The translations under genes were made by a program, and so were the position numbers. A model generated the notes under the pieces. It worked only from the letters and a program-made list of their open reading frames with translations. It was not told the DNA's origin and did not search any database. Shown here piece by piece: positions 24,573-30,600 of a DNA stretch of 35,660 bases. Positions within the stretch are counted from its first letter, which is position 1; each line of letters begins with the position of its first letter. The DNA comes from Candidatus Limimonas coprohippi (lineage in GTDB: Bacteria > Bacillota > Clostridia > Oscillospirales > Acutalibacteraceae), in assembly GCA_018065925.1 (NCBI GenBank), contig JAGHSI010000055.1, forward strand, positions 1-35,660, read 5' to 3'.

Positions 24573-24652
24573 AATAAAACACCGTTTATATTTTAACACA
24601 TTTGTTAGCGCTGTGCGAGTTATTAATGGGACATCGCAGACAAATATTTTTG

Positions 24653-24670
24653 AATTGTACACAATTTGTC
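24653..24670. promoter_or_regulatory. Operator-like repeat, copy 1 (addB-murC region)
   Basis: AATTGTACACAATTTGTC, identical over 18 bases to the copy at 24742. Its core AATTGT-AC-ACAATT is an inverted repeat with 6-bp arms around a 2-bp centre. It lies 81 bp before addB and just upstream of a possible -35 (TTTATT, 24672-24677) and -10 (TATACT, 24695-24700) spaced 17 bp apart toward murC. The core has the GT-N-AC look of GntR-family sites, but no such regulator is in the window. Confidence 0.55.
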
Positions 24671-24671
24671 G

Positions 24672-24700
24672 TTTATTTTATTGATATTGTGTTGTATACT
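24672..24700 (+). promoter_or_regulatory. Possible upstream murC promoter
   Basis: TTTATT and TATACT separated by exactly 17 bp. The -35 is poor (3 of 6) and the -10 good (5 of 6). It would begin transcription near 24707, upstream of the second operator copy. Confidence 0.35.
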
Positions 24701-24734
24701 CTTCTAGTCTATAAAAGGTATTATTTTTTATAGA

Positions 24735-24740
24735 TATAAT
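24735..24740 (+). promoter_or_regulatory. murC proximal -10 box
   Basis: A consensus TATAAT box that abuts the second operator copy, which begins at the next base (24741). The predicted transcription start near 24747 would lie inside the palindrome. No clear -35 is present. It is 37 bp before the murC ATG. Confidence 0.5.
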
Positions 24741-24759
24741 AAATTGTACACAATTTGTC
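24741..24759. promoter_or_regulatory. Operator-like repeat, copy 2 (over the murC start site)
   Basis: AAATTGTACACAATTT is an inverted repeat with 7-bp arms around a 2-bp centre, followed by GTC as in copy 1. Positions 24742-24759 are identical to 24653-24670, 89 bp apart. A protein bound here would cover the predicted start of the murC transcript, consistent with repression (inference). Confidence 0.6.
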
Positions 24760-24776
24760 TATTATGGAGGCAATTC

Positions 24777-26177
24777 ATGAATATTGACAGCTTGCTCAAA
24801 AGCATTAAGAGAATTCACTTTATAGGAATTGGTGGCTCGGGCATGTGTCCCTTAGCAGAAATTCTTATCGCTAATGGATACGCTCTGACAGGCTCTGATA
24901 ACAACCCTGGTGATAACATAAATAAACTTAGAGATTTAGGTGCAGAGATTGCTATGGAACAAGTTCCTGAAAATCTCACAAAGTTTAATCCTGAACTTAT
25001 TGTTTATACAAACGCTATCTTACCAGGCAACCCAGAACTTAGTGCAGCTATGAACGGTGAAGTTCCTTGTGTTGAGAGAGCGGTACTCTTTGGTGCTATC
25101 TCTCGTATGTTTAACAACTGTATCGGTGTGTGTGGTACACATGGCAAAACATCAACCACATCACTTCTTTCACAACTCTTACTTGAAAACGGCAAGGATC
25201 CTACACTTGTAATCGGTGGCATACTTCCTTTAATTGATAGCCACGGCAGATCTGGTAAATCTGACACTATGGTCTGTGAGGCGTGTGAGTTTAAAGATAC
25301 ATTCCTTGAACTTTCACCGGACACTTGCATTATCTTAAACATCGATAATGACCATATGGAGTATTTTGGTACTATCGAAAACAGCATTCGTTCTTTCACT
25401 AAATTTGCTGACATGACAACAAATCTTGTTGTTTATAACGGTGATGATGAAAACACTCTCACTGCTATTAAGAATATGACAAATACTTCTGGTAAGAAGT
25501 TTATTTCTTTTGGCTTTGATAGTTCTAATGATTACACTGCTGCAAATATCACTTTTGTTCGAGGAGCTTATCCTGAATTTGATGTTATTTATCGTGGAGA
25601 TAAAATCGGACATGTTGCATTGGGATTCCCAGGTATGCACTCTGTAATCAACTCTCTGTCTGCTATTGCTGTAGCTTTGGAAAATGGTATTACTATGGAA
25701 CAGATTTCTGCTACTATTGGAAACTTCAAGGGAGCAGGCAGACGTTATGAAATTTTGGGTGAAATAGGTGGCATAACTATAGCTGATGATTATGCACATC
25801 ATCCAACAGAACTTTTTGCAACTTTGAATACTGTAATGCGTATGCAATTCAACCACGTTTGGGCTGTATTCCAACCATTTACATATTCAAGAACGAAAAC
25901 TCATATGAAAGCATTCGCAGAGGCACTGTCAATCCCTGACCACTGTGTAATGACTGAGATTATGGGTTCACGTGAAATAAATACAGATGGCGTTTATACA
26001 TCTCAACTTGCTGAACTTATTCCAGGTAGTGTTTGGTTTGAAACACAAAAGGAAGTTGCAGATTATGTAATGTCAAAAGCCGAACCAGGCGATCTTATTA
26101 TTACTCTTGGCTGTGGTGATATTTATAAAGCCGCACAGTATATGCTCAAGACTTATGAGGAGAGATTAAATGGCTAA
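24777..26177 (+). CDS. murC: UDP-N-acetylmuramate-L-alanine ligase
   Basis: Adds L-alanine to UDP-MurNAc in cytosolic peptidoglycan precursor synthesis. The 466-aa protein begins with the Mur N-terminal Rossmann motif (IGIGGSGMCPLAEIL). The ATP-binding P-loop is Gly120-Thr-His-Gly-Lys-Thr-Ser126. Later parts include EACEFKDTFLELSPD, NIDNDHMEYF and the C-terminal DDYAHHPTEL motif typical of Mur ligases. Length is normal. The ATG follows ATGGAGGCAATTC. An upstream in-frame start would begin in the regulatory repeat and lacks a ribosome site. It heads a seven-gene operon and overlaps the next gene by 8 bp. Confidence 0.96.
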   Translation: MNIDSLLKSIKRIHFIGIGGSGMCPLAEILIANGYALTGSDNNPGDNINKLRDLGAEIAMEQVPENLTKFNPELIVYTNAILPGNPELSAAMNGEVPCVERAVLFGAISRMFNNCIGVCGTHGKTSTTSLLSQLLLENGKDPTLVIGGILPLIDSHGRSGKSDTMVCEACEFKDTFLELSPDTCIILNIDNDHMEYFGTIENSIRSFTKFADMTTNLVVYNGDDENTLTAIKNMTNTSGKKFISFGFDSSNDYTAANITFVRGAYPEFDVIYRGDKIGHVALGFPGMHSVINSLSAIAVALENGITMEQISATIGNFKGAGRRYEILGEIGGITIADDYAHHPTELFATLNTVMRMQFNHVWAVFQPFTYSRTKTHMKAFAEALSIPDHCVMTEIMGSREINTDGVYTSQLAELIPGSVWFETQKEVADYVMSKAEPGDLIITLGCGDIYKAAQYMLKTYEERLNG

Positions 26178-26958
26178 GTACACAAGAAACACAAATAAGA
26201 ATAAGTACAGGAATAGACATCAAGAGATGATGCGTAGACGTCGTGTCACGACTATTGTGGTTCTCTTTATCTTTGTACTTATTTTTGCACTTATTCTTAA
26301 AAGTTGCTTTTCTTCGGATAAGAAGAAAGATAAGAAAGAGGATACGTCCTCAAAGACAGAATCATCTATGACAACAGATGGTACAACTGAACCAGTTACT
26401 TATGAGCGTGATATTGCATTTGATACGGACAGCTCATATGCATCAAATCATAAGTACTGTGTAGGCGTAAATAGAAAAGAAAATGTTGTTACTGTTTATG
26501 CTAAAGATTCAGAGGGCTTCTTTACTGAAGCAGTCAAAGCTTTCACTTGCTCTTGTGGTAAGGAAGGTCACGAAACTCCTCTTGGAACTTATACCACATC
26601 TGAAAAGTATGAGTGGCTTAAGATGGTCGACGGCTCATATGCTCAGTACACACTTCATATCAATGATCAGATTTGGTTTCACTCAGTACCATACACAGCA
26701 AAGGACAAGGGATCACTTGAGTACGACGAGTTCAACAAACTTGGAACTGCGGCTTCACTTGGATGCGTAAGACTCGCTGCAGCGGATGCTAAATGGATCT
26801 ACGATAATATTGAGTGGAAGACCATGGTATTCATCTACGATAGTGAGACACCGGGACCACTTGGTAAACCTGAGACAGTTAAAATTGATACTAACAATAG
26901 AAACAAAGGTTGGGACCCTACGGATCCTGACAAAGCAAATCCTTGGGCAAAGAAATAG
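26170..26958 (+). CDS. L,D-transpeptidase (YkuD domain), membrane-anchored
   Basis: A 262-aa protein predicted to crosslink or trim peptidoglycan outside the cell. A basic N-terminus (MMRRRRV) precedes one membrane segment at about 26-43, followed by a Lys/Ser/Thr-rich linker. The YkuD domain covers about 95-225, with candidate His171 (WFHSVPY) and catalytic Cys199 in SLGCVRL. The classical ending is SHGCHN/R; here Leu replaces the His before the Gly, a variant seen by eye. A tail containing Pro and Gly follows. Translation overlaps murC by 8 bp (ATGGCTAA), and the ribosome site AGGAGAG lies in the murC end. Confidence 0.88.
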   Translation: MAKYTRNTNKNKYRNRHQEMMRRRRVTTIVVLFIFVLIFALILKSCFSSDKKKDKKEDTSSKTESSMTTDGTTEPVTYERDIAFDTDSSYASNHKYCVGVNRKENVVTVYAKDSEGFFTEAVKAFTCSCGKEGHETPLGTYTTSEKYEWLKMVDGSYAQYTLHINDQIWFHSVPYTAKDKGSLEYDEFNKLGTAASLGCVRLAAADAKWIYDNIEWKTMVFIYDSETPGPLGKPETVKIDTNNRNKGWDPTDPDKANPWAKK

Positions 26959-26969
26959 GGGAGAAAATT

Positions 26970-28718
26970 ATGAATACAAATAAAGCACTTTATGATGTTC
27001 CACAGGTTAAGAACTTTAAAGAACTCATTGAAAATTCAGTAAAGCTTTACGGTAATGAACCAGCTTTTAAACTCCGTAATTCTGATGGTTCTCTTTACGA
27101 CATTAACTATATTTCATTCAAAGAAGATATTTACGCTTTAGGCGCTGCTATTACAGACCTCGGTTGGCTTGGTAAGCAGGTGGCTATTATGGGTCTTAAC
27201 TCATACAATTGGGTTATGACATATCTTGCGGTTCAAATCGGTGGTGGATGTACAGTTCCTATCGATAAGGAACTCTACTTTGAGGATATCAATACTATTC
27301 TTGAGGTTTCGGAGACTGATATTTTCTTCCTTGATACAAAGGCTTATAAGAAGATTATTGAGCATAAGAATGAACTCTCTCACGAGATTACTTTTGTTGT
27401 ACTCGATGCCAAAGAACCAAGTGATGATTTTATGATGTTCTCTGACGTTTTGGAGAGAGGCCGTACATTAGTAACTGCTGGATCTGAATGCGTTGCTACA
27501 TATTCTGCTATCGATGCGGATCCTAACAAGATGAGCGTGCTCAGCTTCACATCGGGTACTTCTGGTCTTACAAAGGGCGTTATGCTCACACAGGGAAATA
27601 TTTGCTTTGCTGTAACAAGTAACTGTTCCGTTGCAAAGTGTGGCCCTGGTGACCAGTATCTCTCAGTTTGCCCATGCCATCACACTATGGAAATGACAGA
27701 AGGCATTTTGATTCCTCTCTATACAGGTTGCTGCATTGCTTTTAATGATAGCCTTCTTCACCTTATGAAGAACCTTCAGGAAATCAAACCAACAATCTTT
27801 GTATGTGTTCCACTTATGATGGAAAAATTCTGGCTTAAGATTATGTCAGCTGTTTCTGAAAAGAAGGGCGGTAAACTTAAACTTACATTTGGTAAGCTCG
27901 TTGCTGAGGCTACAAATGCAGTTGGTATTAATATGAATGACCGAATCTTTGAGGAAATCACAAAGAACTTCGGTGGTAGACTTCGTCTTTTCGTTGTAGG
28001 TGGTGCTGCTGTACCTCCACAGCCTGTTAAGGACTTTAAGACTTTCGGTGTTGATTCATATATCGGTTATGGTATGACAGAGTGTGCACCACTCATTGCT
28101 TGTAATCACGATGCTCTCTTTACAACCGATTCAGTTGGTAAGCCAATTCCAGGTGTTGACGTTAAGATTATCAATGAGGACTCAAACGGCATTGGTGAGA
28201 TTTGTGTTAAGGGTCCAAATGTAATGCTTGGTTACTATAAGGATGAGGCATTGACTAAGGAGACTATCGACGAATTTGGATATCTCCATACAGGTGACCT
28301 TGGTTCTATGGATTCAGAAGGCATTCTTCGTATTCACGGTCGCATCAAGAACGTTATTGTTACAAAGAATGGTAAGAATATCTATCCAGAAGAGCTTGAA
28401 TATCACCTCAATAATAATCCTCTCGTTGCAGAGTCAATGGTAGTTGGCTTTGAAAATGAGGAGGAGGATGACACTATCGTTGAGGCAAAGATTTTCCCTG
28501 ATTTTGATGCTATCAAGAAGAAGTATCAGGAGAAGGGCAAGGATGTCCCAACAGGTATTGAACTTGAAAAACTCTTTGATGATATGATTAAGGAACTTAA
28601 CAAGAAACTTCCAAATTACAAAAACATCAAAAAGGTTACACTCCGTGATAATGAATTTATCAAAACTACAACTATGAAAATTAAGCGTTATGCAAATATG
28701 GATAACGAAAAGGAATAA
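26970..28718 (+). CDS. AMP-binding enzyme, long-chain acyl-CoA synthetase-like
   Basis: A 582-aa adenylate-forming enzyme that activates a carboxylate (probably a fatty acid) as an acyl-AMP and likely transfers it to CoA. The P-loop-like motif at 192-203 reads SFTSGTSGLTKG. Further motifs are GYGMTE (366-371), HTGDLG (from 440), and the C-terminal catalytic Lys in TTTMKIKRY. The IHGRIKNVIVTKNGKNIYPE segment is also characteristic. No membrane segment is clear. The start ATG has AGGGGAGAAAATT before it; the open frame has an earlier ATG without a good site. Substrate and acceptor are not certain, and acyl-ACP or lipid-related ligation are alternatives. It may feed lipid metabolism, since the operon has cell-envelope genes. 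Confidence 0.88.
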   Translation: MNTNKALYDVPQVKNFKELIENSVKLYGNEPAFKLRNSDGSLYDINYISFKEDIYALGAAITDLGWLGKQVAIMGLNSYNWVMTYLAVQIGGGCTVPIDKELYFEDINTILEVSETDIFFLDTKAYKKIIEHKNELSHEITFVVLDAKEPSDDFMMFSDVLERGRTLVTAGSECVATYSAIDADPNKMSVLSFTSGTSGLTKGVMLTQGNICFAVTSNCSVAKCGPGDQYLSVCPCHHTMEMTEGILIPLYTGCCIAFNDSLLHLMKNLQEIKPTIFVCVPLMMEKFWLKIMSAVSEKKGGKLKLTFGKLVAEATNAVGINMNDRIFEEITKNFGGRLRLFVVGGAAVPPQPVKDFKTFGVDSYIGYGMTECAPLIACNHDALFTTDSVGKPIPGVDVKIINEDSNGIGEICVKGPNVMLGYYKDEALTKETIDEFGYLHTGDLGSMDSEGILRIHGRIKNVIVTKNGKNIYPEELEYHLNNNPLVAESMVVGFENEEEDDTIVEAKIFPDFDAIKKKYQEKGKDVPTGIELEKLFDDMIKELNKKLPNYKNIKKVTLRDNEFIKTTTMKIKRYANMDNEKE

Positions 28719-28719
28719 T

Positions 28720-30600
28720 ATGAAAAGAATTATTAGTATTATCCTCTGTGTGGCTTTGGTACTTAGCTTCGCTGGTTGTAGTTCACACTTCACAGAGGAA
28801 GGCCTTAAAGTTGTTGCGGCGACTGCCATGGGTGCCGGATTCCATACTGCAATTCCCGAGGATTACAGTACGGCCATGAAATCCGGCCTTTATGAGCTTC
28901 TCATTGATGAGAAGAACAGCGCCATCGCCGCAAAAGATACAACAGGCAAAATATGGTATGCACTTCCAACCTCAGAGAACTCAAAGGGTTCTATGCTGAA
29001 TCTTGAAGTAACTGATGGTAGCAAGTGGTACAAACTTAATTCACAGGATAATGCTGTAGCTTTTGGTAATGCTAAGTGTGTTGCATCTGATTCTGCTATA
29101 AGTATTGAATATACTTTCAGCGATAAAGCAACTAATCCAACTTTTAGTATCCCTGTAACTTTGACACTTAAACTTGTTGATGGTGTCTTTGTCGCATCGG
29201 TCGACGCATCAAAAATTGGAGTAAACTCCGGTTGGACAATTATAAACGTTGAGATTCTTCCAACATTTGGTGCAGTATCAAGCCCAGAGGGGGAGGATTT
29301 CATCGTCATCCCTGATGGCCCTGGTGCTATGATTGATCTTTCGGGAGCTGGTGAAACATCATATGTGCTTGATACATATGGCAGTGATCCTTTAAAAACT
29401 GAGGATAACTTGCATCCTGCAGTTATCGGCGCATTTGGCCTTAAAGCTGGTAGCAGCGCCTTTGCCGGTATTGTTACAGGCGGCGACGCCATATCTAAAA
29501 TCAAAGCAGAGACAGGTGCTTTGAACACTGTCGGAGCCTCATTCTCATATCCAACAAATGAGAACTTATCTCTCTCTTATAAGTTTATTTCCGGCTCGGC
29601 TGCAACCTGTTCTACACTTGCATCTATGTGTCGTGAACAGCTTACCCGTGACGGCATGTTATCAACCCGTATAATTTCGGCTGAGGACAGCCTTCCTGTA
29701 AATATTACTGTAAATGCAGATAAAGATAACAAGTTTGAGAATACAGAGGACTTGATTTCAATTCTCAAGGCGAAGGGTATCAATGATATTAATCTTCGCT
29801 ATGACAATATCATTAAGTCTTATAAAGTTCAGTCAAAGATGGGAAAAAGTGAAGAACTTGAATCCCTTCGTGCATATCTCTCGTCTCAAGGATTTGGTTT
29901 TTATCCAACTGTTAACTTCTTTGATTCAAATGTTGCAACAACAAATAAACTTGCTTCAAATGTTGTTTCTTTCATGAAAAATGCAAAGAAACTTGGCTTT
30001 GAAGGATACTGTATTGGCGATGCTGGCAGTGAACTTTCTTCATCGTCATCTACAGGACGACAGGAGTTTGCTGAGGGAATTTTCTCACAGTCAATTACTC
30101 TTTCAACTAATAAGAATCTTATGGTTGACCACGGTAACCTCTACACTTTAAAGAATGCAAATATCGTTTCTGGTCTTCCAATATTTACATCGTATGAAGA
30201 GAATGATCACTATGAGGCAACTCCATTTGTACAAATGATTCTTCGTGGCGTTGTTGAGTATACTGGCACTTACTTAAACAATGTAGAGGACTATGACCAG
30301 GCTCTTCTCCGTTGCCTTGAATATGGCGCAATGCCATCATACATGCTCTCCCTTAATGAGAAGGACGAGAAGTATTACTACGAGAACTGGTCTGCAAAAG
30401 CACTTAATGCATATGAGTTGTTTGACAAATCTATGGCAGATCTTCGCTCGGCAAGAATGACAGATCATAAAAAAATTCAAAAAGGTCTCTATCTCACAGA
30501 GTATAACAACGAGACTTATATCTATGTAAACTTCACAGGAGATACACAGCATTACAATGGCCTCACAATTGGACCACTTACTTATCTCCGTGTAAACTAA
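28720..30600 (+). CDS. DUF5696-like lipoprotein
   Basis: A 626-aa exported protein with a lipobox (LVLSFAGC at residues 12-19), so Cys19 is the likely lipidated residue after cleavage. The mature part begins SSHFTEEGLK. A beta-rich N-terminal half (GKIWYALPTS, IPVTLTLKLVDGVF, VIPDGPGAMIDLSG) is followed by an alpha/beta region (INDINLRYDNIIKS, QGFGFYPTVNFFDSN, MVDHGNLYTLKNANI) that looks like a glycoside-hydrolase-type TIM barrel. I assign it by resemblance to DUF5696 proteins; this is moderately sure. No catalytic residues are named. AAAAGGAATAAT precedes the ATG, one base after the previous stop. Probably sits on the outer membrane leaflet in contact with the wall. Confidence 0.7.
   Translation: MKRIISIILCVALVLSFAGCSSHFTEEGLKVVAATAMGAGFHTAIPEDYSTAMKSGLYELLIDEKNSAIAAKDTTGKIWYALPTSENSKGSMLNLEVTDGSKWYKLNSQDNAVAFGNAKCVASDSAISIEYTFSDKATNPTFSIPVTLTLKLVDGVFVASVDASKIGVNSGWTIINVEILPTFGAVSSPEGEDFIVIPDGPGAMIDLSGAGETSYVLDTYGSDPLKTEDNLHPAVIGAFGLKAGSSAFAGIVTGGDAISKIKAETGALNTVGASFSYPTNENLSLSYKFISGSAATCSTLASMCREQLTRDGMLSTRIISAEDSLPVNITVNADKDNKFENTEDLISILKAKGINDINLRYDNIIKSYKVQSKMGKSEELESLRAYLSSQGFGFYPTVNFFDSNVATTNKLASNVVSFMKNAKKLGFEGYCIGDAGSELSSSSSTGRQEFAEGIFSQSITLSTNKNLMVDHGNLYTLKNANIVSGLPIFTSYEENDHYEATPFVQMILRGVVEYTGTYLNNVEDYDQALLRCLEYGAMPSYMLSLNEKDEKYYYENWSAKALNAYELFDKSMADLRSARMTDHKKIQKGLYLTEYNNETYIYVNFTGDTQHYNGLTIGPLTYLRVN

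Follow-up and report, generated by a model that had tools for sequence, protein, structure and literature searches.

Sequence and Position of the Palindromes

The essential gene murC is usually regarded as a housekeeping gene, and a pair of identical palindromes upstream of it raises the question of whether a dedicated regulator acts there, which protein that might be, and which genes it would control. We addressed this question in a stretch of 35,660 bp on contig C10 of Candidatus Limimonas coprohippi (genome G000, 1.33 Mb in 135 contigs), referred to below as the window. Both palindromes lie in the intergenic gap of 204 bp that separates addB on the minus strand from murC on the plus strand.

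24653..24666, no strand: putative operator 1, AATTGT-AC-ACAATT, with TTTGTC to 24670
24742..24755, no strand: putative operator 2, the identical palindrome, with TTTGTC to 24759; in the murC leader, directly 5' of the ribosome-binding site

A first-pass annotation had described two identical 18-mers here, and this description was borne out. AATTGTACACAATTTGTC occurs at 24653-24670 and again at 24742-24759, identity ends at the edges of the 18-mer, and each copy contains the 14-bp palindrome. The repeat is far above chance expectation, as the longest exact repeat in the gap was 18 bp, against a maximum of 13 bp in 3,000 dinucleotide shuffles (0/3,000). At least two perfect 6-2-6 inverted repeats arose in 0.7% of the 3,000 gap shuffles. 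Both palindromes consist of half-sites of the AATTGT/ACAATT type, as in MarR-family (SarZ/OhrR-type) operators. The trailing TTTGTC becomes TTCATC, TTTATC or TTTGCA in relatives and is less conserved than the palindrome itself.

Two other readings of the element were rejected. Only with the AC centre does the element come within one mismatch of a DnaA box, and what is conserved is the symmetry, not the box. For a WalR or OmpR-type direct repeat (TGT-N8-TGT), the second TGT, 11 bp downstream, is not conserved. A literature search returned no paper for the exact palindrome AATTGTATACAATT, and only unrelated papers for TTGTATACAA together with MarR.

The Predicted murC Promoter and Its Operon

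Upstream regions of murC throughout the family carry GTTTATTT, followed some 17 bp on by TATAAT. The corresponding elements of the window place a putative promoter between the two palindromes.

24672..24677, plus strand: inferred murC -35, TTTATT within the conserved GTTTATTTT, based on family-wide conservation
24695..24700, plus strand: inferred murC -10, TATACT, with TATACT/TATAAT aligned in six genus members and family-wide

The predicted transcription start falls at about 24706, which puts the centre of copy 1 at about -47 and that of copy 2 at about +42. The copies thus bracket the conserved promoter, with copy 1 abutting the -35 and copy 2 lying in the leader. The earlier annotation had instead placed the start at copy 2, next to a TATAAT box at 24735-24740. 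This box does abut copy 2; as a promoter it finds no support, since relatives lack it and promoter calling gave nothing sigma-70-like in that region on the plus strand. A start at copy 2 is therefore probably not the main one, since the conserved promoter sits between the copies. Between the -10 and copy 2, at 24714-24731, the leader also holds a conserved element, AAAGGTATTATTTTTTAT, which with its flanks could fold into an RNA hairpin of 13 bp (z-score of the leader versus shuffles, -3.1).

Four tightly packed genes follow.

24777..26177, plus strand: murC (NCBIfam TIGR01082, 387 bits), first gene of the putatively controlled operon
26170..26958, plus strand: YkuD L,D-transpeptidase-domain protein (PF03734, E 8e-18)
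26943..28718, plus strand: long-chain acyl-CoA ligase-like (AMP-forming) protein, whose homologue in G005 forms a unit apart, with a putative operator pair to itself
28690..30600, plus strand: DUF5696 protein (PF18952), probable last gene of the operon

The operon had been annotated as murC-lepA-hemW, an assignment that we revise to murC, the L,D-transpeptidase, the acyl-CoA ligase and DUF5696; lepA begins about 260 bp further on, after a gap, and is followed by hemW.

Conservation Across the Genus

The addB-murC gap was aligned from G000 and five genus relatives, with MurC 82-88% identical in the four that gave a long match. Copy 1 is present in all six species, at the same place in G010, G004, G002, G001 and G003, while copy 2 is present in four (the window, G010, G004 and G002). 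Overall, murC sites are kept in seven of the nine genus members with a readable murC upstream region, and no palindrome sites were found upstream of murC in the other two, G008 and G009. Alignment of this gap had been proposed earlier as a check on the element, and it found the palindromes conserved among relatives rather than confined to one genome. The arms AATTGT and ACAATT are nearly invariant between species. The central two bases vary among AC, AT and GT, with GC in G005, and because they are always purine-pyrimidine, the two-fold symmetry is maintained.

In G005, gene order has changed, and murC and addB are separated by the acyl-CoA ligase gene as a unit of its own. This genome has two pairs of sites: those of the first pair, spaced 22 bp, occupy the murC leader and are both downstream of the promoter, and those of the second, spaced 21 bp, precede the ligase gene.

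On the other side of the gap, AddB and AddA are encoded, and co-control of recombination repair with wall synthesis had been suggested. We consider this unlikely. The sites track murC and the acyl-CoA ligase after the change in gene order, and addB keeps a box of its own.

24614..24632, minus strand: addB promoter box GTCCCATTAATNNCTCGCA, 19 bp, separate from the operator system

GTCCCATTAATNNCTCGCA lies upstream of addB in genus members with a readable region, including G008 and G009, whose murC genes are without palindromes, and the CTCGCA within it is followed some 18 bp on by a TAAAAT -10. The box occurs in nine of the 11 genus genomes, once in each (twice in G008, where the second copy has two mismatches); none was found in the reversed control. 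Because the addB box is kept where the palindromes are absent, we assign the palindromes to murC and the ligase rather than to addB.

Other Occurrences of the Motif

We searched 11 genus genomes exhaustively for AATTGNNNNCAATT and read the neighbours of the matches. Among 14 perfect AATTGTNNACAATT sites, seven were at murC, three at a sarZ-like gene, two inside gyrB and two elsewhere. Two of the three sites at sarZ-like genes come from G009, where two motif copies 78 bp apart separate gpx from a MarR-family gene of the OhrR/SarZ type. More generally, the palindrome is directly upstream of five of the eight sarZ genes of the genus, and is absent upstream of the sarZ-like gene in G000, G010 and G006. 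In G009, G002 and G005, its right arm supplies the TACAAT that forms the -10 of a TTGNNN-17-TACAAT sarZ promoter; in G001 and G003 it falls just downstream of the sarZ -10. A palindrome over the -10 of sarZ would be the layout expected of autorepression.

The link between the two kinds of site holds in both directions. A matrix built from sarZ-promoter sites only ranked copy 2 first (22.2 bits) and copy 1 second (21.6 bits) in the 35,660-bp window, with the next unrelated site at 10.3 bits, a gap of about 11 bits. In the reverse test, a matrix from murC sites recovered the sarZ sites. Outside the genus, ATTGTRYACAAT was found in four of 28 OhrR-homologue loci (93 kb), ahead of gpx-ohrR or cation-transporter-ohrR operons; at the density seen across the family, about 158 sites per 250 genomes, only about 0.03 would be expected. 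Family-wide, matches to ATTGTRYACAAT are mostly background and coding, and TTGWNNWCAA was absent within 200 bp of most OhrR-homologue genes outside the genus.

A genome-wide search with up to two mismatches had also been proposed, as a means of finding other promoters that carry the element. In G000 it gave 8 and 7 matches versus 5 and 11 in the reversed control, and no genome-wide regulon was visible above that control. Since near matches are no commoner than in the reversed sequence, a regulon in G000, if there is one, must be very small. In G001, AATTGTACACAACT lies between a membrane sensor-like protein gene and an ABC transporter gene (C26 9559; L251 1560), a possible further target. Separately, a large inverted repeat, GAATTTGTGAACAATTT...AAATTGTTTACAAATTC, was seen near a contig end in G000 (C81 3858-3902; L009 1490-1556).

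A Candidate Regulator

The first-pass annotation placed the regulator outside the window, and indeed none was recognised within it. SarZ/OhrR-type homologues were found in eight of the 11 genus genomes, and the one in G000 is the sole convincing MarR protein of that genome.

C21 4901-5371: SarZ homologue of G000, 68% identical to the G009 homologue; proposed regulator

Its best structural match is SarZ of Staphylococcus aureus (E 2.8e-33), with OhrR of Bacillus subtilis a close second. SarZ of S. aureus has exactly the same recognition helix (LDSGTLTPLLKK / FLDSGTLTPLLKKLE), and that of B. subtilis OhrR is nearly identical. The sensing cysteine of OhrR (NQLC) is replaced by alanine (NQIA) in G000 (L158) and G010 (L159), so that the G000 regulator lacks the peroxidatic cysteine of an OhrR organic-peroxide sensor. 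A second cysteine in the same helix is still present in the NQIA homologues, and the six other homologues of the genus have NQLC or VQVC. Because the cysteine is alanine, sensing of organic peroxide through the NQLC residue is unlikely in G000 and G010.

Presence of the regulator and of the murC operators could also be compared. G008, which is 98% complete, has neither. G004 has operators, and no regulator was found in its genome, which is 55% complete.

Taken together, these patterns suggest that the palindromes are probably operators of a MarR-family repressor of the SarZ/OhrR branch at the murC-led operon. An operator pair for a dimeric repressor, in line with the repressor binding suggested in the first-pass annotation, is supported by the conservation in seven of nine members, by the symmetry that is kept, and by the motif's position on a repressor's own promoter. 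In the mechanism that we propose, the homodimeric regulator encoded at C21 4901-5371 would bind both palindromes, each dimer reading the AATTGT/ACAATT half-sites. Binding at copy 1 (about -47, against the -35) would hinder polymerase entry, and binding at copy 2 (about +42, in the leader) would act as a roadblock. Transcription of the murC-L,D-transpeptidase-acyl-CoA ligase-DUF5696 operon would then most likely be lowered until a signal releases the repressor. We infer the binding, the repression and the start site from sequence. As the sarZ genes of G000 and G010 have no site of their own, the link to the regulator in G000 itself rests on homology.

Alternative Explanations

The same SarZ/OhrR-type protein might activate murC rather than repress it, or copies 1 and 2 might loop the DNA. 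We regard this as somewhat unlikely, in an estimate that overlaps with the one for the operator reading above. An activator would act from copy 1, which is centred at about -47 next to a weak -35, and RmaH of Lactococcus lactis is a MarR-family protein that activates wall and lipid genes (PMC13277315). However, murC promoters of the family share the same weak -35 without any site, and at sarZ the site covers the -10. Looping draws on the spacings (78, 89, 90, 90, 101, 21 and 22 bp), which are in phase at a helical repeat of about 11.2-11.4 bp, although the series is small, its values are related, and the helical repeat was fitted post hoc. The G005 arrangement, with both murC sites downstream of the promoter, also argues against this alternative.

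That the sites serve a dimeric repressor of some unrelated family, such as GntR, TetR or LacI, which reads a similar palindrome, is unlikely. Two-fold symmetry would suit any dimeric helix-turn-helix protein, no regulator was recognised in the window, and sarZ of G000 lacks its own site, all of which such a repressor would accommodate. What it leaves unaccounted for is that, away from murC, the motif recurs at sarZ/ohrR promoters, both within the genus and at OhrR loci of other genera. For GntR in particular, an analogy drawn in the first-pass annotation, FadR-type sites have an odd GT-N3-AC centre, which the even 2-bp centre here (GT-N2-AC) does not match. The recurrent partner gene of the motif is a MarR gene, and the linkage to sarZ/ohrR points to the SarZ/OhrR branch of that family instead.

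It seems highly improbable that the palindromes belong to a structured RNA leader or to a cis-acting RNA element that controls translation of murC. The leader is predicted to fold better than shuffles (z of -3.1) and copy 2 makes a short stem; yet copy 1 precedes the inferred start, sarZ promoters have the same palindrome over their -10, the arms are fixed with no covariation, and no Rfam match was found. A chance or functionless neutral repeat is scarcely credible: the gap is AT-rich and the rest of the genome holds no more near matches than background, but no shuffle among 3,000 produced such a repeat, the sarZ-site matrix picked out both copies, and three more species, with MurC 82-88% identical, have kept both.

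Comparison With Known Systems

The SarZ/OhrR-type operators proposed here can be set against several characterised or predicted MarR systems. SarZ of S. aureus (PDB 3hrm, 3hse, 3hsr), the best structural match, shares the recognition helix FLDSGTLTPLLKKLE with the G000 protein; its sensing cysteine is in KQLC, where G000 and G010 have NQIA, and the target proposed here is murC. OhrR of the B. subtilis OhrR-ohrA system (PDB 1z91, 1z9c) is likewise a MarR dimer, with a nearly identical reading helix. The published B. subtilis OhrR box, TACAATTNAATTGTA, is made of TACAATT/AATTGTA heptamers (PMC6034001). In that box the same heptamers face inward across a 1-bp spacer, whereas in the window they face outward (AATTGT-RY-ACAATT), and the window sites are thus not canonical OhrR boxes. 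The targets also differ, ohrA encoding a peroxidase.

Outward orientation is found in the predicted TTGTG...CACAA sites of Lp_0889, a proposed MarR/OhrR-type O2-response regulator of Lactobacillus plantarum (PMC3389018); those sites were predicted for oxygen-response genes, not wall genes. Precedents for MarR proteins on wall genes are AsrR and RmaH. AsrR of Enterococcus faecium is OhrR/MgrA-like and its regulon includes ohr, gpx, pbp5 and dlt genes (PMC3410868), but it has a broad regulon of 181 genes and cysteine sensing, unlike the G000 system. RmaH of L. lactis targets murT-gatD, for peptidoglycan, and membrane-lipid genes (PMC13277315); there it is an activator and uses a different AT-rich motif. 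What is new here is very probably the regulatory target and the lineage-specific variant, the kind of switch being already known.

Implications

A more tentative reading, possible though on balance doubtful, is that a redox repressor has been rewired in this lineage. It would have lost its sensing cysteine and its autoregulatory site and kept its reading helix. Its main targets would now be an essential wall operon and an acyl-CoA ligase, and in place of peroxide it might sense a lipid or wall intermediate. If the proposed regulation is correct, this group of uncultured gut Clostridia would use a MarR-type switch to make the supply of wall precursors respond to a redox or lipid signal, and within one genus the regulator's DNA code would have been kept while its sensing residue changed.
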